Of a stretch of DNA of 64,000 nt, positions 7,288-41,880 are shown piece after piece (position 1 is the stretch's first letter; each line of letters starts with the position of its first letter). The stretch covers positions 138,467,875 through 138,531,874 of the forward strand of contig CM034546.1 in the NCBI GenBank assembly GCA_020055645.1. Direction: 5' to 3'. The notes under the pieces were generated by a model. The model was not told the DNA's origin, did no database searches, and was given only the letters and a program-made list of their open reading frames with translations. Made by a program: the position numbers and the translations under genes. The DNA is from Tomocerus qinae. Lineage: Eukaryota > Arthropoda > Collembola > Entomobryomorpha > Tomoceridae.

Positions 7288-7471
7288 CTTGGTGATGCTG
7301 ATTGTTTGGCGAGTATCATGGACCATGGATTATGATTACCAAATTAACGTTACCCTAATAATTAATTGCTGCACTTAACACTTTAATCCAGGAAAAACTT
7401 GCGACGCAAATACGACTTGGCCCATATCTATTGGACCCAAATGATAATGACCATATTGAATGATGTATCTA

Positions 7472-8500
7472 TGTGGTAGTCCAGAAGAGCAGGGGTGCCA
7501 GTAGAGCTAATGGCTAGTCCACAGGAGCACTGCTCTTGGGGCTTAGCCATAGGAGCTATCGACTTTAGTCCATAGGAGCAGTTCTGATTTCTTTGCATTA
7601 ACAGTACGCATTTATTAAAAATATTATTATTAGTCATCATATAATTAGTCAGTAGGTTAATAATACATGAAAATACTTAGAACACAGTAAAATTAATAAG
7701 TAACATCATTAAATTAACAAGTGAATCAGAGTAAAGGAGATTAATCGCAGTGAACATTAATACTTAGTGTTGCCTACATGACACTTGGTACTACAAGGTA
7801 CTTTATTTTTTCTGCATGCGCATATTCTAGTTCCACAACTAGTCTTACATTACAAATAGATTGACCATTGTGGGAAGTGAAGGACCTTAATACTCTTATG
7901 GATTTGATAGAAGTTAGCGGCCATTTTACCCATGAGTCTATGATTCCTTTACCACATTGTAATTGAAATTGTAATTGGTCCATTTGTACTCACTGTCACT
8001 TTTAGACCTCAAGTCGATTAGGTCAATTTGCACTCTGTTCATAGGACCGCTGGCATAAATTGGGCACCCAGTTATAGGCTTAGGTATCGGACGTCGAATA
8101 TTGCAAGTACAGCATATTTTAGAGACTTTGCAGTTGTGGAGCTAGAATATGCGCATGCAGAAAAAATAAAGTACCTTGTAGTACCAAGTGTCATGTAGAC
8201 AACACTAAGTATTAATGTTCACTGCGATTAATCTCCTTTACTCTGATTCACTTGTTAATTTAATGATGTTACTTATTAATTTTACTGTGTTCTAAGTATT
8301 TTCATGTATTATTAACCTACTGACTAATTATATGATGACTAATAATAATATTTTTAATAAATGCGTACTGTTAATGCAAAGAAATCAGAACTGCTCCTAT
8401 GGACTAAAGTCGATAGCTCCTATGGCTAAGCCCCAAGAGCAGTGCTCCTGTGGACTAGCCATTAGCTCTACTGGCACCCCTGCTCTTCTGGACTACCACA
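7472..8500. mobile_element. 1.03-kb TIR element with ~370-bp inverted arms
   Basis: Left arm 7472-7840 and right arm 8132-8500 are almost identical reverse complements (termini TGTGGTAGTCCAGAAGAGCA), leaving a ~290-bp unique centre. The outer ~110 bp of each arm holds three sub-repeats of the form TAGTCCAnAGGAGCA. A 4-bp TCTA borders both ends (7468-7471 and 8501-8504), a possible short target-site duplication. No transposase frame. The high arm identity suggests recent insertion or arm homogenisation. Confidence 0.8.
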
Positions 8501-9512
8501 TCTATAGATAACTTACATAAGCGTTAATAATTGGAGAGTGATTGATGGGGAAAAGTTATTTCATTGACTTTATGTCATTTATATATTTTAAAACATGCGT
8601 GGATTGCCATTGAAATGGAAAATACCAATATTCTCCAACCTCCTTCCTGTGTACACACAATATAAAATATAACAGGTTACAGGTATTGAACCAACTGAAA
8701 AGTTAATTATAAGTTATATAACTTTGATGATTAGTGATCAGTCCACAAATATGAATTATTTTCAAACAGATGTACAAATTAAATTTCATTCTAAAACAAC
8801 TTCGGTTTTGTGTTATACACCATGTGATATTTTTTTTTATTTTAAAAATTTCCAGGTTTAGTTTTTCTAGGTAGATTCGCACCAATAATGAAAGCTGTTA
8901 TGGATGCATGAAAATTACAGGCTGCAACTTTAACGGCAACCGATTACTCTTGACTTCAGACTTATTTTGTCAGTGGTGTTTAGACCCACCAGGCTTCCTA
9001 ACAAGATCAGAAATAATCCAATTTCCATAGTTGGTAGACGCTGCAAACCTATATATAATATGGTCTATATTATTATATGACATTTAACAAAAACAAAAAT
9101 GACTGCAATCGGTCAGTTATGTTGTAATATGAAGTGTCCTGGTTAGTTTGTATTAATATAAATATTAACTTCCTTTAAGCCTTATGTATACTTGTATCAA
9201 TAAATTGTAATTATTTACCACTAAGTGCATTTTTACCAATGTGATGGTAAAATAACCTATTACTCTATACTAAAATTTATTGTAATCCAAATGATTTCAA
9301 ATTCTATAACACTGTGGGCCGTGATTTCCATTGAAATTTCACTGAAAGCTTGAAATGCACTGAAAAGGACTTAAATTTAAAACGCAGCAGGGTATCTCCA
9401 TCCGTATCCATATAAATCTACTCTTATTACCAACAATAATAGGCATAAACTTAATTAAACTTTTTAATGCATTTGATACATTTATTCACTTTTACTCACT
9501 GCAGATAGCAAC
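8501..9512. other. Unassigned AT-rich stretch
   Basis: About 1 kb with no ORF, repeat or RNA gene that I can support. A TATA-like CCATATAAATC at ~9407 lies ~100 bp before the small ORF that follows. Confidence 0.4.
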
Positions 9513-27689: not shown

Positions 27690-28370
27690 TTATGAGGAAA
27701 CGAAGCTATATTATTTGAAAAATCAACAAAAAATCAAAATTGATAATTGTTGATTAGGAAAATCAACAGAAAACTAAAATTAATAATAGTTGATTAAGAA
27801 AATCAACAGAAAATCAAAATTGATAATTGTTGATTGGGAAAATCAACAGAAAATCAAAATGGATAATTGTTGATTGGGAAAATCAACAGAAAGTCAAAAT
27901 TGATAATTGTTGATTAGGAAAATCAACAGAAAATTAAAATTGATTACTGTTGACTATGAAAATAAACAGAAAATCAAAACTAATTAATGTTGACTATGAA
28001 AATCCACAGAAAATTAAAATTGATTACTGTTGACTATGAAAATCAACAGAAAATCAAAACTGATTAATGTTGACTATTAAAATCAACAGAAATTTGATTA
28101 TCATAATCAATACAAAATCAAAATTTATTAATTTTGACTAAGGCATACATAATGAAAATATATTAATATTGAATATCAGAGTCAATGCATAATGAAAATA
28201 TATTAATATTGACTATTAAAGTCAATACATAATGAAAATATATTAATATTGACTATTAAAGTCAATACATAATGAAAATATATTAATATTGACTATTAAA
28301 GTCAATACATAATGAAAATATATTAATATTGACTGTTAAAATCAAGACAACTTGAAACAGATTCGTTATT
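27690..28370. repeat. 40-bp satellite in an intron of the FAD gene
   Basis: Period-40 units of the form AATCAACAGAAAATCAAAAT + TGATAATTGTTGATTGGGAA (for example at 27801, 27841 and 27881) drift through intermediate types into GTCAATACATAATGAAAATA + TATTAATATTGACTATTAAA by 28340. Each unit contains TTGAT/ATCAA inverted pairs. A fragment of the same repeat sits at ~41420-41510, next to the same type B repeat, so the two travel together. Confidence 0.85.
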
Positions 28371-29446: not shown

Positions 29447-30833
29447 TTTTACTTTTTAAGAGGAAGAAAAGGGGGCAGCTTGTTAGTTTTTAATAGCAGA
29501 ATATATCGAAACACAAAAACAGTTTGGCAGGAAATATGCGGTATTGGAAGTGCCAATCAGATTGTCAGGTTCATTTAATTACTGAAAATAATTTACTCAT
29601 AAGTGTAGGAGACCAAAGCCAACATACACATGGATCCGAAATAATAGAGATAGTAGTTTTACATTTTTTAAATCGGCTAAGAAATGCCATTGAAATGGAT
29701 CCGTCACAGTTATTAGAGAATCTATACAGGTAAGCAATTTTTAAACAAGCTTTAAATTAAGTATATGTACATGGTTTCACTTCACTTTACAACTTTAATA
29801 TAAGGAAAGAGCTTGAACTAGTTCCAGTTGAAATTCGTCCAGAAATGCCCCAATATGCATCGCTCCGTCATACATTGACATGCTATAGACGGAATGTGCT
29901 ACCGAAGTTGCCAAAAAATAGTTCCGAAATTGATCTTACTGATAACTTACGGCTAACTAAAGATGGAGAGAACTTCGTTTTGTGGGATGCCAACACGGAA
30001 AATCGCTTTTTGGTCAGCATTAAAGCAAATTAATTTTTTTTAAACCGTAATAATACACATATTATAATATACCTAATATTATTTGCCTGAATGAAGATTT
30101 TAGGAACTGAGGAAAATCTAAAGTTACTTTGCAAATGTGAAAAAATTTATATGGACGGAACTTTTCAGACAATTCCAAGGCCCTTGTTTTTTCAGATGTA
30201 CACTTTACATGGGGAGATAAAAAATAAAGTAATAATCAATAGATATAGTACATCGCGTCAAAAAACTAATTACATTAAATATTTAATTTCTGATAGATAT
30301 TCCCATTGCTTTTCTGCTTGTTATCAAATAAAACACAACAGACCTATGAAAGACTGCTGACAACGATAACTAATATAGCTGCACAAAGAGGACTTATTTT
30401 TCAGCCCAAGTGTTTCCAACTGGATTTTGAAAAAGCGGTTTTAATTGCAATAAATATTGTATTCCCTCTTGCAGAAATAAAAAGGTGTTATTTTCACTAT
30501 TGCCAAGCTATATGGAGGAAAATTCAAGAATTAGGATTAACAAAAATTTACAAAGACAACAAGGATATAAAAAGATGGTTTCGAATGTTGTTTATTCTTC
30601 CTTTAGTAAATCTTGATGATCTGGATGATGCTTGGCTGCTAATAATGTCCGAACGACCAAATGTCTTTCAAATCGATGAGTTGTTGGATTACTTGGTCAA
30701 TACATGGATTGATGATATGGCAGCCAATAATAGGTACTTGTGCAGCCACTATTATAGCGATACTAACTAAAATTTTGCAGATAGATGTAGATTTTCTCAT
30801 CTTTTCAAAAATATCTATTATTACATTTACTAA
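29447..30833 (+). CDS. FLYWCH / MULE transposase-like gene with introns, N-terminal frameshift
   Basis: The first part (29447-29521) reads FYFLRGRKGGSLLVFNSRIY, the start of a FLYWCH zinc finger. After a one-base frame change the finger continues MRYWKCQSDC ... HTH (29524-29729). Exons 29524-29729, 29805-30012, 30097-30228, 30297-30733 and 30785-30833 join by GT-AG with matching phases, giving LGTEENLKLLCKCEKIYMDG (first catalytic Asp), CFQLDFEKA (second), CYFHYCQAIWRKIQELGL and VNTWID. These are the MULE catalytic blocks. The C-terminal third of a normal transposase is missing. Four phase-consistent introns are unusual for decayed transposon debris, so it may be a domesticated or recently active gene, but the finger frameshift argues against full function. 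Confidence 0.65.
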
Positions 30834-34080: not shown

Positions 34081-34713
34081 TGTATTTAACTAATCACAAT
34101 GGACAAAAATCCTCTTCTTTAGCCAATTTTCACTTTTGGGTTATAATGCATAGTGACAATATTGTTGCAATGAAACGAAAATTGTATTCAACTAATCGTT
34201 GCACTAAAGAGAAGCTATTTTATATTGCATTTGTCTCCCGCAGTTTCAGAGCATGTTAATACCAGCGCGGTGTGTAGTCAGTCCTCTATGCTACTACGCT
34301 GTCTGTCTCACCTGCCGTACTATTACTGCCTGCCTCACCTTCTGTATTTATATAATTTCCACAAACCAGGAGATGCATCAAATTTGAATTCTCATGATAA
34401 CTAGTTGCTCCTGAATATATGTGCTACCATATGCAAAAAACAGATTTGAAATAAGTTATGCCACTGCAAAGATATATTTGCTCCTTATTAATAGTGGACG
34501 ACCAGACGACCAGACAGCCAGACGATCGGACAGAGTGACGGCGACAAATTCATAAGGATACTAAGCAAAGCTTCGATCCTAATAAGTTGAAACTGTTGAA
34601 CAGGTGACAGACTCTTTTCCGGTTCACTATTCAAGTTCTGATTTCTCCCTGTCGCATGACTTAGCTTACAGGACAATGGACTTATGTGACAACAACGGCG
34701 AAGGATAATAGGC

Positions 34714-34722
34714 GTCCTTCCA
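34714..34722 (+). repeat. Left 9-bp target-site duplication GTCCTTCCA
   Basis: Matches 41288-41296 exactly. Nine base pairs is the hallmark length for Mutator-like elements. Confidence 0.85.
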
Positions 34723-34749
34723 AGGCGTGTTAAGTTAGACCCAAACCCA

Positions 34750-35807
34750 CAGGGCCGGATAATTGGGGGGGCAAAGACCTGTGGTGTTTATTTAATATGC
34801 ATTTTTATAGTATTGTACCGAACGTAAAATAACCTCTTCTAAAAATCCTAAAATAGATTTACTAGTAATAGTCACTTCAGAATATTTCTTCAAAATGAGT
34901 TTGAAATATTAGATATTTTTGCGCATTGGTAATCTGCCTATCTATTCGCCATTTAGTTAAATTCAAAATTTTCTTCTAATAACCAGTGTTTTAATTAGTA
35001 AGTGAAGTTGATAAAGTTTATCAATTCTGATATTTAGTTTTTTTGAATTAATTATTGTTTTTACCAAAATTTTCTTAAGCTCTGAGCAAATGTATATTTT
35101 AACATTCCATTAATTAAAAAATAAAACAAAAACAATGCAATTAGCATTGTACGATTCTGAGTTTGAAAATAATCCTCAAACGTGAGCACTAAGCTTCCTT
35201 CCAAGCCGTCTCCTCCCTAATAGAGTCAATTCAAACTATCATCATCCACACTGTTCCAACCCCAGCTTTCCCAACACTAACCGTGTCAATTCAAATCGTC
35301 TCAAACTAAACCATCTTGCACCAAACCGTCTCAACCTAAACCGTCTCAACCCAAATTGTTTTAAGTCAAACCTTCTCAATCCGAAATGTTTCAAAGCAAA
35401 CCATCTCAATTCAACCAGCATCTATTCCAGAGACGCATTGAGGTATGCAAATAGCAAAAAATTCGAGTTCCGCGGAATTGTTTTCAATTTTTAGGCTATT
35501 TTAGACTCATGCCAAAAATTTATACGCGCGAATATATACATTTAAGATATCTATATGAAATGTAAGCCCCCCTTCAAAACCCAAACCTGTAAACATTCTT
35601 GACGTACCCAAACCGTGTCAACACGAAAAGTCTCACCTAAATCTTCTCAGTCTTAAGTGCTATAGTATGAGCTTTAAATTTGGCTTTCTATTACTTACCC
35701 TATAGCCTATTTTAGTATAAGTATGTGGCACAATAATAGTAAGTTAGTATAAAGTGGGCATCAAAATAGCTTTTGCCCGGGCAGCATGAAAACTTTACCG
35801 GCCCTGT
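34750..35807. mobile_element. Nested 1.06-kb hAT-like element
   Basis: Inserted inside the left TIR of the foldback element. It starts CAGGGCCGGATAATTGG and ends ...CCGGCCCTGT, and is flanked by CAAACCCA at 34742-34749 and 35808-35815. Removing it and one flank copy restores the foldback TIR (CCCAAACCCAAATCCAG) exactly as in the right arm. An 8-bp duplication and CAGGG termini fit the hAT superfamily (a 7-bp reading with one extra A in the TIR is also possible). Inside are ~16-bp imperfect ACCGTCTCAAcccAAA repeats (~35280-35420) and no transposase. Confidence 0.8.
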
Positions 35808-35939
35808 CAAACCCAAATCCAGAATCTTGCCAAAGATGGGCAACACAAAATACAACATGAGGGGGGATATCAGAACCTATTACAAACGGTCAAACAAGGG
35901 TAGACGAGGCTTCCAGGAGGCTTCCAACACAAATTCCAA

Positions 35940-37180
35940 AGTGTGGCAGCATAAGTGGGAGACTTCCAAAACATACCCCAAAATGCTTCCACATGAGGGG
36001 AGATTTCAGAACTAATTCCAAAGTTGTTCCAAGGGTAGAGGAGGCTGCCAACACAATTTTCAAAACAGTGCAGCATAAGTGGGAGGCATCGAAAACATAT
36101 CCCAAAACGCTTCAACATGAGGGGGGATTTCAGAACTAATTCCAAAAGTCGTTCCAAGGGTAAAGGAGGCTTCCAACGCAAATCCAAAAACGTTGCACCA
36201 TAAGTGGGAGACTTCAAAAACATAACCCAAAACGCTTCTACATGAGGGGGGATTTCAGACCTAATTCCAAACGTTATTCCAAGTGTGGAGGAGGCATCCC
36301 ACACAAATTCCAAAACGGTGCAGCATAAGTGAGAGACTTCCAAAACATATCATAAAATGCTACTACATAAGGGGGGGGTTTCAGAACTAATTCCAAAAAG
36401 GTATCCAACACAAATCCCAAAACGGTGCAGCATAAGTGGGAGACTTCAAAAACATAACCCAAAATGCTTCTACATGAGGGGAGATTCCAGACCTAATTCA
36501 AAACGTTATTCCAAGTGTAGAGGAGGCATCCCACACAAATCCCAAAACAGTGCAGCATAAGTGGGAGACTTCCAAAACATATCATAAAATCCTACTACAT
36601 GAGGGGGGGTTTCAGAACTAATTCCAAAAAGGTATCCAACACAAATCCCAAAACGGTGCAGCATAAGTGGGAGACTTCAAAAACATAACCCAAAATGCTT
36701 CTACATGAGGTGGAATTTCAGACCTAATTCCAAAAGTCGTTCCAAGGTTTAAGGAGGCTTCCAACGCAAATCCCAAAACATTGCACCATAAGTGGGAGAC
36801 TTCAAAAACATAACCCAAAATGCGCTTACGTGAGGGGGGATTTCAGAACTAATTCCAAACGTTATTCCAAGGGTAGGGAAAGCTCCAAACACAAATTCCA
36901 AATCGGTGCGACATAAGTGGGAGACTTCGAAAATATATCCCAAAATGCTACTACTAATATCAAAACGATTCTATATAAAGGGGGATTTCAGAATTAAATC
37001 AAAACGATGTTCCAAGTGTAGAGGAGAGTTACAACACAATTTTCAAAACGGTGCAGCAATTCCTCGGTGGCTTCCAAAACATATCCCAAAATGTTTCTGC
37101 ATAAGGGAGATTTCAGAACTAATTCCAAACGTTATTCCAAGTGTAAAGGACACTTCTAACACTAATTTCAAACCGTTTAA
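35940..37180. repeat. ~124-bp satellite, left arm of foldback element
   Basis: About ten units with AACATAACCCAAAATGCTTC, TACATGAGGGGGGATTTCAG and GCAGCATAAGTGGGAGACTT, starting near 35967, 36091 and 36216. The units read as frames of the type PPHVEAFW...SPTYAA on the minus strand only because of the repeat. The mirrored array is at ~40250-41190. Confidence 0.9.
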
Positions 37181-38510
37181 TAGCTTCGATAAAAGCTATT
37201 TATATATTTGCTATTTCATTATTAGCAAAACTAAAAAACCGAATTTCATATTCCAAGGACCAAATAATTTGTGGGCCCTTGAATTGTTTCCAACAATTCT
37301 ATAGTTTCGATCAAAAATTATTTAAGTCTTAGTAAGAATTAGTACAATAGAATTTCATTTTAAAAGTACCAAAAATTTTGTGGGTCCTTAAAACTTTGCC
37401 ATTCAATCCAAATGAGAATTGGAGATGACTAATAGGACCAAGAGGTACTTATTAAAAACACTTTCAAACAGTTCTATAGTTTCGATCAAAAGTTATTTAA
37501 TTCTTAGTACAAGTAAGAACAATAGAATTTCATTTTCAAAGGACCACCATTTCTGTGGGCCCTTAAACCTTGCCATTCAATCGAAATAAGAATGGAGTGT
37601 GATTGATAGGACTAGTAGGTACTTAATAAAATGAGTATCAAACAATTCTATAGTTTCGATCAAAAATTATTTAAGTCTTAGTAAGACATAGTACAACAGA
37701 ATTTCATTTTCAAAGTACCAACAGTTTTGTGGGCCCTTAAACCTTGCCATTCAATCCAAATGAGAATTAGAGATGACTAATAGGACCAAGGGGTACTTAG
37801 TAAAAATACTTTCAAACAGTTCTATAGTTTCGATCAAAAGTTATTTAATTCTTAGTACAAGTAAGAACAATAGAATTTCATTTTCAAAGGACCACCATTT
37901 CTGTGGGCCCTTAAACCTTGCCATTCAATCGAAATAAGAATGGAGTGTGATTGATAGGACTAGTAGGCACTTAATAAATTTAGTTTCCAACAATTCTATA
38001 GTTTCGATCAAAAATTATTTAAGTCTTAGTAAGAAATATTACAACAGAATTTCATTTTCAAAGGACCAACATTTCTGTGGGCCCTTAAACCTTGCCATTC
38101 AATCCAAATGAGAATTAGAGATGACTAATAGGACCAAGGGGTACTTAGTAAAAATACTTTCAAACAGTTCTATAGTTTCGATCAAAAGTTATTTAATTCT
38201 TAGTACAAGTAAGAACAATAGAATTTCATTTGCAAAGGACCAACATTTCTGTGGGCCCTTAAGCCTTCCCATTCAATCGAAATAAGGATGGAGTGTGATT
38301 GATAGGACTAGTAGGCACTTAATAAATTTAGTTTCCAACAATTCTATAGTTTCGATCAAAAATTATTTAAGTCTTAGTAAGAAATATTACAACAGAATTT
38401 CATTTTCAAAGGACCAACATTTCTGTGGGCCCTTAAACCTTGCAATTCAATCCAAATGAGAATTAGAGATGACTAATAGGACCAAGGGGTACTTGTAGGT
38501 ATTGTTGGTT
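37180..38510. repeat. ~175-bp satellite, inner left arm
   Basis: Seven units marked by CTATAGTTTCGATCAAAA at ~37299, 37480, 37651, 37831, 37999, 38172 and 38345. Two alternating sub-types make a ~350-bp higher-order unit. The mirrored array occupies ~38555-40240. Confidence 0.9.
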
Positions 38511-38554
38511 CTTGAAAAATAGAATTCTGTTGTTCTAGTTTCCACTTAGAATTA

Positions 38555-40240
38555 AATAACTTTTGATCGAAACTATAGAACTGGTTGAAATTATTTTTAT
38601 CAAGTACCTACTAGTCCTATCATCCACATACAATCCTAACTTGGATTGAATGGCAAGGTTTAAGGACCCATAAAATTGTTGGTGCTTGAAAAATGAAATT
38701 CTGTTTTTCTAGTTTCCACTTAGAATTAAATAATTTTTGATCGAAACTATAAAACTGGTTGAAATTATTTTTATCAAGTACCTACTGGTCCTATCAATCA
38801 CCTACAATCCTCATTTGGATTGAAAGGTTAGGTTTAAGGGCCCACAAAATTGTTGGTGCTTGAAAAATAAAATTCTGTTGTTCTAGTTTCCACTTAGAAC
38901 TAAATAATTTTTGATCGAAACTATAGAACTGGTTGAAATTATTTTTATCAAGTACCTACTAGTCCTATCAAGCACATACAATCCTCATTTGGATTGAATG
39001 GTAAGTTTTAAGGGCCCACAAAATTGTTGGTGCTTGAAAAATAAAATTCTGTTGTTCTAGTTCCCACTTAGAAATAAATAACATTTGATCGAAACTATCG
39101 AACTGGTTGAAATTATTTTTATCAAGTACCTACTAGTCCTATCAAGCACATACAATCCTCATTTGGATTGAATGGTAAGTTTTAAGGGCCCACAAAATTG
39201 TTGGTGCTTGAAAAATAAAATTCTGTTGTTCTAGTTCCCACTTAGAAATAAATAACATTTGATCGAAACTATCGAACTGGTTGAAATTATTTTTATCACG
39301 TACCTACTAGTCCTATTAATCACCTACAATCCTCATTTGGATTGAATGGTAAGGTTTAAGGGCCCACAAAATTGTGGGTTCTTGAAAAATGGAATTCTGT
39401 TGTTCTAGATTCCACTTAGAATTAAATAATTTTTTATCGAAACTATAAAACTGTTTGAAATTATTTTTATCAAGTAGGTACTAGTCCTAATTATCACCTC
39501 CAAGCCTCATTTGGATTGAATGGCAAGGTTTAAGTGCCCACAAAATTGTTGTTCCTAGGAAAATGGAATTCTGTGTCATTTACGGCTAAGTATGAAATAA
39601 CTTTTGATCGAAACTATAGAACTGGATGAAACAATTTTTATCAAGTACCTACAAGACCTATCAATCACCTTCAATGCTAATTTGAGATGATTGGCAAGGT
39701 TTAAGTGCCCACAAAATTGTTGTTCCTAGGAAAATGGAATTCTGTGTCATTTACGGCTAAGTATGAAATAACTTTTGATCGAAACTATAGAACTGGATGA
39801 AACAATTTTTATCAAGTACCTACAAGACCTATCAATCACCTTCAATGCTAATTTGAGATGATTGGCAAGGTTTAAGGGCCCATAAAATGGTTGGTGCTTG
39901 AAAAATGAAATTCTGTTGTTCTAGTTTCCACTTAGACTTAAATAACTTTTGATCGAAATTATAGGACTGTTTGAAACTATTTTTATCAAGTAGCTACTAG
40001 TCCTAATTATGACCTCCAAGCCTCATTTGTATTGAAGGGCAAGGTTTAAGGGCCCACAAAATTGTTGGTACTGGGAAACTGATATTCCGTGTCATTTTCT
40101 TCTAAGTTTTAAATAACTTTTGATCGAAACTATAGAACTGGTTGAAAAGATTTTTATCAAGTAGTCCTATCAATCACCTTTAATCCTCATTTGGATTGAA
40201 TGGCAAAGTTTAAAATTATATAAAATTGTTGGTTCTAGGA
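38555..40240. repeat. ~175-bp satellite, inner right arm
   Basis: Reverse-complement counterpart of 37180-38510 with TTTTGATCGAAACTATA(G/A)AA and AAGGGCCCACAAAATTGTTG in each unit. Sub-types differ from the left arm in several fixed bases, so the arms have been evolving separately despite the mirrored layout. Confidence 0.88.
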
Positions 40241-40249
40241 AAATGAAAG

Positions 40250-41190
40250 GTTGGTCACAGGAGGTCGTTTTGGAATTTGCGTTGGAAGCCACCTCTATCC
40301 TTGCGTTTGTAATTGGTTTTAAAATCCCCCTTATGTAGTAACATTTAGGGACATGATTTAGAAATCTCCCACTTATGCTACATTGTTTTAGAATTTGCGT
40401 TGGAAGCCTTCTCTACCGTTGCATCACCGTTTGGAATTAGTTCTGAAATCCCCCCTCGTGTGGTAGCATTTTGGGATATGATTTGGAACTTTACCACTTA
40501 TGCTGCACCACTTTTGAATTTATGTTGGAAGCCTCCTCTACCCTTAGAACAACGTTTGGATATAGTTCTGAAATCCCCCCTCATGTAGTAGCATTTTGGG
40601 ATGTGATTTTGAAGTCTCCTACTTATGCTGCACTGTTTTTTGTATTTGCGTTGGAAGCCTCCTCTACCCTTGGAACAACTTTTGAATTAGTTCTGAAATC
40701 ACCCCTCATGTAGTAGTATTTTGGGATGGGATTAGGAAGTCTCCCATTTATGCTGCACCGTTTTTGAATTTGTGTTGAAAGCCTCCTCTACTCTTGGAAT
40801 AACGTTTATAATTAGTTCTGAAATCCCCCCTCATGTAGTAGTATTTTGGATATGATTTAGAAGTCTCCCACTTATGCTGCACCGTTTTTGAATTAGTGTT
40901 GGAAGCCTCCTCTACCTTTGGAACAATGTTTGGAATTAGTTCTGAAATCCCCCCTCATGTAGTAGCATTTTGGGATATGATTAGGAAGTCTCCCAATTAT
41001 GCTGCACCACTTTGGAATTTGTGTTGGAAGCCTCCTCTACCCTTGGAACAACGTTTGGAATTAGTTCTGAAATCCCCCCTCAAGTAGTAGCATTTTGGGA
41101 TGTTATTTGGAAGTCTCCCACTTATGCTGCACAACTTTGGAATTTGTGTTGGAAGCCTCTTGGAAGCCTTGTCAACCCTTGTTTCACCGT
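40250..41190. repeat. ~124-bp satellite, right arm of foldback element
   Basis: About eight units with CTGAAATCCCCCCTCATGTA and GAAGTCTCCCACTTATGCTG, the reverse complement of the 35.9-37.2-kb array. Short plus-strand frames seen here are repeat artefacts. Confidence 0.9.
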
Positions 41191-41287
41191 TTGCAATAGG
41201 TTCTGATATCTCCCCTCATGTTGCATTTTGTGTTGCCCATCTTTGGCAAGATTCTGGATTTGGGTTTGGGTCTAACTTAACACGCCT

Positions 41288-41296
41288 GTCCTTCCA
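41288..41296 (+). repeat. Right 9-bp target-site duplication GTCCTTCCA
   Basis: Exact copy of 34714-34722, directly after the right TIR ...CTTAACACGCCT. Confidence 0.85.
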
Positions 41297-41361
41297 TATT
41301 ACCGCATTCTAACGCAACGGCCCTGTACTTTATGAATAATTTAAATTATTTTGGTGGGAAC

Positions 41362-41414
41362 AGTGTCTCGGGTGTAGTTTTCTACTGTCTAGGATAAACT
41401 ACCCCCGAGACACT
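41362..41414. repeat. Hairpin, ~20-bp stem
   Basis: AGTGTCTCGGGTGTAGTTT pairs with AAACTACCCCCGAGACACT across a 15-base loop with one mismatch. It lies between the foldback element and the type B repeat. Confidence 0.7.
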
Positions 41415-41880
41415 ATGAATTGATTAATATTGTGTATTAAAATCAACAGAAAATCAAAATCGGTTAATACTGGCTATCAAAATAAAAAGGAATTCTAAAA
41501 ATGTAGATTTGGCTATCAATTTGAATATAAATGCGAAATAGACTTATTTCCGTCCCATAATGGTTATTTTCTGGTTTTATTTACGTTATTATAAAATCTT
41601 AAATTTTGTAGAAGCGGAGCTAAATATTTTATATTATAATGCTAACAATTTATAGGAAACACAATTGAAATGGCCCATTTTCTGTTTTGACTATCAAATA
41701 AAGACAAAGTGAGCCCGCGGTATCTCAGCAACCTTTGGACCGATTTTTTCCAAAATCAATAGATTCGTCACTCACAAGTCCATTGGCATTGTTTATGAAT
41801 TTGGTCAACTTCGGTCATGTGCTCGAAGGTTATCGTGGGTCCGGACGGACAGACTCTGTGGTACTTCATTGCTAGTAAAT
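41415..41880. repeat. Type B repeat with 40-bp satellite fragment
   Basis: Begins with ~90 bp of the 40-bp satellite (AAAATCAACAGAAAATCAAA) and continues collinearly with 28.38-28.70 kb through GCGGTATCTCAGCAAC and GTCCGGACGGACAGACTCTG. The shared order of satellite then unique part shows it is one mobile or transduced unit present at two places. Confidence 0.75.

Follow-up and report, generated by a model that had tools for sequence, protein, structure and literature searches.

A gene-less, satellite-armed foldback transposon in Tomocerus qinae and its giant, probably Rehavkus-like relatives

Introduction

How new satellite DNAs originate is a long-standing question, and it is raised directly by one locus of the collembolan Tomocerus qinae. 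The locus lies in a stretch of 64,000 nucleotides (GenBank assembly GCA_020055645.1, contig CM034546.1, positions 138,467,875 to 138,531,874 of the forward strand), which is called the window here and was analysed as a whole. An earlier note, made from the sequence alone, had described positions 34714 to 41296 as a complete 6.6-kb foldback element of the Mutator-like (MULE) type, with perfect 27-bp terminal inverted repeats (TIRs) and arms built of two satellites in mirror order, and had seen in it a route by which satellite DNA is created and moved. Is this interval a mobile element, which family does it belong to, and where do its satellites come from?

We conclude that the interval is very probably a non-autonomous DNA transposon that has no gene of its own and belongs to a giant foldback family nearest to Rehavkus within the MULE superfamily. 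The window element shows satellite-like DNA transported by a transposon. Moreover, a single genome contains elements with genes and derivatives without them, two subfamilies that differ in their inner satellites, exact insertion sites and a candidate transposase, and this combination allows the birth, turnover and transport of satellite arrays in transposon arms to be traced stepwise.

Structure and insertion site of the window element

The element occupies positions 34723-41287, between two copies of GTCCTTCCA. This 9-bp sequence occurs exactly twice in the window, on the same strand, and not at all on the opposite strand, which bears out the exact duplication described before. A 19-base terminal pattern likewise has two matches in the window (at most three mismatches; chance expectation 0.01), one at each end of the element. 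Outside the interval, BLAST (E 1e-5) found nothing in the window that matches any part of it. The features of the element and its flanks are as follows.

34707..34722, +: end of a small host repeat, left remnant including the target
34714..34722, +: left copy of the 9-bp target-site duplication GTCCTTCCA
34723..34749, +: left outer terminus, 27 bp ahead of the nested insertion
34742..34749, +: left copy of the 8-bp duplication CAAACCCA of the nested insertion
34750..35807: nested insertion labelled hAT-like, 1,058 bp, ends CAGGGCCGG / CCGGCCCTG(T), foreign to the element
35808..35815, +: right copy of the 8-bp duplication CAAACCCA
35816..37177, +: left terminal domain and ~125-bp satellite array, some spacings 106-107 bp
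37286..38499, +: left inner 174-bp satellite array, ~7 units in 348-bp dimers
38475..38515: centre, a head-to-head junction of the inner arrays that is colinear with its counterpart in the 20.8-kb copy (C1:30.99 Mb)
38500..40248, -: right inner 174-bp satellite array, ~10 units
40266..41159, -: right 125-bp satellite array
41128..41231, -: stretch with homology to the 125-bp unit, terminal bases 57-160 as numbered from the right end
41261..41287, -: right outer terminus, 27 bp, identical when inverted to the left one
41288..41296, +: right copy of the 9-bp target-site duplication GTCCTTCCA
41297..41370, +: small host repeat continuing right of the element

From the outside inwards, each arm consists of a terminal domain, an array of ~125-bp units (on the left, the units themselves lie at about 35862-37177) and an array of 174-bp units. 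Without the nested insertion, the arms measure ~2.7 and ~2.8 kb and align with 77.5% identity (2,586 aligned bases, 327 gap columns); in steps of 150 columns, identity falls to 45-56% around the switch between the satellites. The mirror order and the positions of the two arrays were correctly recognised earlier, but the arms are not exact copies of each other.

Behind the nested insertion, the left arm resumes the sequence of the right arm with 95% identity over the first 149 aligned bases. Because right-arm sequence continues there, the 27-bp TIR is only the remnant that lies outside the insertion: the inverted 27-bp identity is real, but the homology extends further. We take the insertion to be hAT-like solely from its CAGGG-type ends and its duplication, which is 8 bp long when read as exact and 9 bp long when one mismatch is allowed. 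At the right end of the 37.3-kb copy (C1:75.67 Mb), an apparent insertion of ~380 bp lies ~25 bp inside the terminus, close to the position where the window copy was interrupted.

When the flanks of the window element are joined with one copy of the duplication, the resulting sequence matches five places at four other loci of the genome, with three mismatches each and none in the control. The target differs by one base in four of them (GTCTTTCCA) and by two bases in the fifth (C7). These places are ends of a small repeat, with alignments of 78-95% across the join, and two such ends face each other ~200 bp apart at C3:33.94 Mb. The window element is inserted 7 bp within the end of this repeat. 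The matched empty sites are paralogous sites and not an empty allele.

The family in the same genome

The earlier note had proposed searches for further termini and for empty sites; both returned matches, the latter being the paralogous sites just described. All genome-wide searches refer to the window's own 334-Mb assembly. The 27-bp terminus has 31 matches at up to three mismatches, and its reversed control has none. Joining each rightward match to the next leftward one yields 11 facing pairs with spacings of 3.6-43 kb. In ten of these pairs, all nine bases flanking the two ends are identical, and no two loci carry the same nine bases; none of the 110 pairings of flanks that are not partners matches. 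Nine of the 31 matches are unpaired, and four of these (L016, L018, L023, L027) depart from the family sequence soon after the terminus, within the 100 bases inspected.

The ten duplicated elements are 37.2, 20.8, 20.8, 43.1, 37.3, 3.6, 37.2, 31.6, 36.6 and, for the window copy, 6.6 kb long. Six of the nine others were read through in pieces, and the remaining three were judged by their ends and part of one gene. All six read-through elements have 125-bp arrays at both ends, and the 125-bp core is present at both ends of each of the other three. In five of the six, both arms continue inwards with long 173/174-bp arrays in mirror order. In the larger copies these inner arrays are 5-19 kb long, for example ~15.7 and ~18.7 kb in the 43-kb copy, and ~7.0 and ~10.9 kb in the 30.99-Mb copy, where they are separated by 4 bp and no gene is present. 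The earlier reading of a mobile element with true duplications is supported, and it can be refined: the window element is a gene-less relative of 20-43-kb elements that have a transposase, and was itself interrupted by a second transposon.

Two subfamilies can be told apart by their termini (AGGCGTG... and AGGCGCG...). Their 125-bp consensus units agree at 113 of 124 positions, whereas their inner repeats have only a core in common, with 46 of 57 columns matching (score 57, null maximum 32). The 3.6-kb copy has an RNase H-like open frame in its middle (L046:1859-2704; PF00075, 2.4e-10), perhaps a retrotransposon fragment.

The candidate transposase gene of the full copies

Exon 4 of the transposase gene has 19 matches in the genome. 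Nine lie inside seven of the ten duplicated elements, and five at two loci for which a single end was found (C1:128.8 Mb and C32); the other five are distant relatives with 22-37% identity. No match lies in the other three duplicated elements, the window element among them. The exon is open in five of the seven transposase-bearing copies, and the copy used as query is 99-100% identical to two others. Between the subfamilies, dN/dS of exon 4 is 0.20-0.21 with dS near saturation, and within one subfamily it is 0.40-0.42. The distant relatives at C1:84.716 and 84.734 Mb, C87:13575 and C1:128.862 Mb suggest that further families exist in this genome.

The predicted protein carries a Ulp1 protease domain at its C-terminus, as identified by Pfam. 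Alignment with SENP1 shows that the His, Asp and Cys columns are conserved, which we take to be the catalytic residues. Both plant MULEs and Ginger elements are known to harbour Ulp1 genes. Further upstream lies a PHD finger that is split by an intron (PF00628, E 6.6e-6, 26.5 bits against a cut-off of 24), a result obtained for a single copy, with a 69-residue piece that was put together by eye out of two exons. Reading by eye also gave the motifs LDSTG, CxxH and AVES; CxxH recurs in both distant relatives that cover this region, and all six aligned proteins keep the glutamate. In our reading, these motifs are the set that a MULE-type D-D-E enzyme would show.

The gene-less form and a possible course of events

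The centre of the window copy was compared with that of the gene-less 30.99-Mb copy. The two are identical at 336 of 381 positions (88%), with a 20-bp gap at the join, and only 2 of 1000 centres of random phase scored as well. A pattern built from these two copies found no third place in the genome with the same centre join. Because two gene-less copies have a common centre, the gene-less form probably moved in trans, and the evidence speaks for a single ancestor that lost the gene domain and whose gene-less descendants then moved. Alternatively, the gene domain might have been deleted in place after insertion, so that the gene-less palindrome itself never moved. At any single locus such a deletion would look the same; however, the two copies have different target-site duplications, and their common centre then requires either movement or two deletions in nearly the same phase. 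We consider deletion in place rather unlikely.

The following course of events can be envisaged. The transposase of a full copy would recognise the outer terminus, and possibly also the 125-bp units, excise the element and reinsert it with a 9-bp stagger. In an ancestor, the gene domain would have been lost, which joined the inner arrays head to head, and the resulting palindromic form would then have been moved in trans. Arm lengths may have changed in both directions through unequal exchange or slippage, and the hAT-like element would later have entered the left terminus.

Distribution and origin of the two repeats

When a 22-base core of the 174-bp repeat was searched in the genome at up to two mismatches, 799 places were found, and none in the control. 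Among the first 100 places listed, all of them exact, 97 fall into seven loci with an element end (19, 24, 21, 7, 16, 1 and 9 places; at C1:128.8 Mb, C32 and C34 a single end was found) and three are lone matches elsewhere. For a 32-base core of the 125-bp repeat, 44 of 47 places lie in loci with an element end; two of the others are at C1:29.945 Mb and one is on C7. In the paired elements, rightward matches of the 125-bp core are all in left arms and leftward ones all in right arms. No large free array of either repeat was seen, with the 174-bp core judged on 100 of its 799 places. Movement of satellite DNA by the element, as proposed earlier, is therefore supported, but the proposed creation of free satellites is not, since the listed core places are nearly all in element loci.

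The 125-bp repeat is identical to terminal bases 57-160 at 78 of 106 positions (score 74, null maximum 25), and it has no detectable relation to the outer 27 bases. Because of this homology, the 125-bp repeat probably grew from subterminal sequence. A repeat apparently derived from the flanking terminal domain has likewise been proposed for Tetris (PMC4079207). Among 334 inner units of four elements, the nearest neighbour lies in the same arm for 249, as local turnover would give. Unit means had hinted that the arms of the window copy might be a chimera of the two subfamilies; this was rejected, as slice-wise best matches placed the inner arrays of both arms mostly nearest to the same elements.

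It could be argued that the arms were captured from satellites that already existed in the genome and were not born in the element. The inner 173/174-bp repeats leave some room for this, as neither the terminus nor the 125-bp repeat resembles them more than shuffled controls do. The terminal homology of the 125-bp repeat speaks against it, as does the lack of a large free array among the places considered, and we regard capture as unlikely, though less so than deletion in place. Taken together, the data allow a broader and more tentative proposal, for which the odds appear slightly less than even: a giant Rehavkus-like lineage with a transposase fused to a Ulp1/SENP-type domain, whose arms would serve as satellite nurseries, with the outer 125-bp repeat conserved, a different inner 173/174-bp repeat taking over from one subfamily to another, and gene-less satellite palindromes as long as 20 kb transposed in trans.

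Assignment of the family and alternative explanations

Long inverted satellite arrays are classic assembly traps, and this proneness to misassembly is what could be said for regarding the interval as an assembly join, or as ordinary satellite arrays that stand head to head and are not mobile. Yet ten loci have exact and mutually different 9-bp duplications, paralogous empty sites exist, and loci with an element end hold 97 of the 100 listed places (of 799) of the 174-bp core and 44 of the 47 of the 125-bp core. An immobile or artefactual structure was rejected on these grounds and has next to no probability.

Another question is whether the family belongs to another superfamily, as a foldback of the P/Galileo type or a classical Phantom-type MULE, and is not a relative of Rehavkus. 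Galileo, of the P superfamily, has a THAP transposase and 7-8-bp duplications. Foldback structure has arisen in several superfamilies (PMC3169594); the Pfam MULE model has no match in the scanned exons, and the window contains a separate fragment with a MULE domain (~29761-30767). On the other hand, 9-bp duplications, a PHD finger and satellite in inverted ends all fit the description of Rehavkus. The Pfam matches of the scanned pieces include no THAP domain, and the family differs from Galileo in this respect and in its 9-bp duplications. Beyond the two ends of the element, the window contains no match to the family terminus, which the MULE fragment therefore lacks. We therefore hold membership in another superfamily to be improbable.

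Several observations nevertheless weigh against a mobile, Rehavkus-like family. The facing pair at C1:73.1 Mb has no duplication (none of nine bases in common), and at the empty sites only 7-13 bases plus the target align left of the join, because the host repeat ends there. In the 3.6-kb copy (87.06 Mb), the inner repeat was detected in the left arm only. Exon 4 has three stops in the 75.66-Mb copy and is broken into three pieces, one of them with four stops, in the 127.5-Mb copy, while in the 38.96-Mb copy exon 4 is open but exon 1 contains a stop and exon 2 changes frame. Between the closest copies, dN/dS is 0.90-0.97, a value based on 5-12 changes. None of the scanned exons matched PF10551, the catalytic motifs were assigned by eye only, and the assignment of the second aspartate is uncertain. 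The MULE assignment made in the earlier note is plausible by the features held in common with Rehavkus, but it is not borne out by the Pfam model.

Other features of the window

The MULE fragment at 29761-30767 is a transposase of another type that is broken or split by introns (PF10551, E 1e-11 for 30297-30767). It was rejected as the source transposase, as the family terminus has no match near it. At 7463-8509, two arms of 378 bp, 99% complementary and 291 bp apart, form an inverted repeat; no convincing duplication was found at its ends, and it is perhaps a recent foldback miniature inverted-repeat transposable element. A 21-bp minisatellite of ~23 copies (96% match) lies at 1059-1545, and the unit of a 40-bp repeat array at 27719-28349 recurs at 41378-41499, immediately beyond the right end of the element. 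Scanning the window with Rfam and for tRNAs gave no matches.

Comparison with known systems

The family has long inverted repeats, internal tandem repeats and variable length, as foldback elements do. For Rehavkus, 9-bp duplications, a PHD finger, a minisatellite and TIRs tabulated at 26-400 bp are given (PMC6446971), and Rehavkus-1_TC of Tribolium, an element of 9.5 kb, carries the 164-bp satellite TCsat23 in its inverted termini (PMC6446971, PMC10218199). The present family resembles Rehavkus in its 9-bp duplications (10 of 11 pairs), its PHD finger (one copy) and the satellite in its inverted ends. It differs in its two satellites, in arms that range from ~2.7 kb (window) to ~19 kb, in an element size of up to 43 kb and in the Ulp1-like domain at the C-terminus of the protein. 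The arms of ~2.7 kb, and the inner arrays of 5-19 kb in larger copies, can be set beside the tabulated 26-400 bp, but the table may exclude satellite arrays, so that these lengths are perhaps not comparable.

Repeat units in FB/FB4 of Drosophila are short. FB/FB4 elements are non-autonomous, with long repetitive TIRs of ~700 bp, 9-10-bp duplications and, according to the source, an unknown transposase (PMC8277862); the window element is similar in its long repetitive inverted ends, a duplication in the 9-bp range and its non-autonomous nature. Tetris of Drosophila virilis is a foldback element with satellite arms and 8-10-bp duplications; it is described with one satellite (TIR-220), TIRs of at most 1,735 bp, expanded arrays outside the elements and no transposase found (PMC4079207). 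In contrast, the present family has a candidate transposase, and no large free array came to light (the 174-bp core being judged on 100 of its 799 places). In the Mutator/Foldback element Tm1 of root-knot nematodes, the TIRs are composite and include tandem repeats of ~14 bp, most duplications are of 9 bp, and forms with and without genes occur; elements of, for example, 1,080 and 2,593 bp are described, and the transposase is of the Phantom type with a FLYWCH domain (PMC3169594). Tandem repeats in the TIRs, 9-bp duplications and the two forms are found here as well, whereas unit and element sizes differ.

Published ranges are 14-500 bp for the TIRs of MULEs (PMC6446971) and 1.4-10.0 kb for complete MULEs of arthropods (PMC13359780). 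With lengths of 20.8-43.1 kb, eight of our ten duplicated elements exceed the top of the latter range. In the accessible text of the open-licence literature, we found no description of such 20-43-kb elements or of a Ulp1 fusion in them. The earlier note had called an element of symmetric satellites unusual, which overstated the case: the principle of a satellite-armed foldback element is already known from Tetris, FB4, Tm1 and Rehavkus-1_TC. What appears to be new here is the size of the elements, their inner arrays of 5-19 kb and the Ulp1 fusion.

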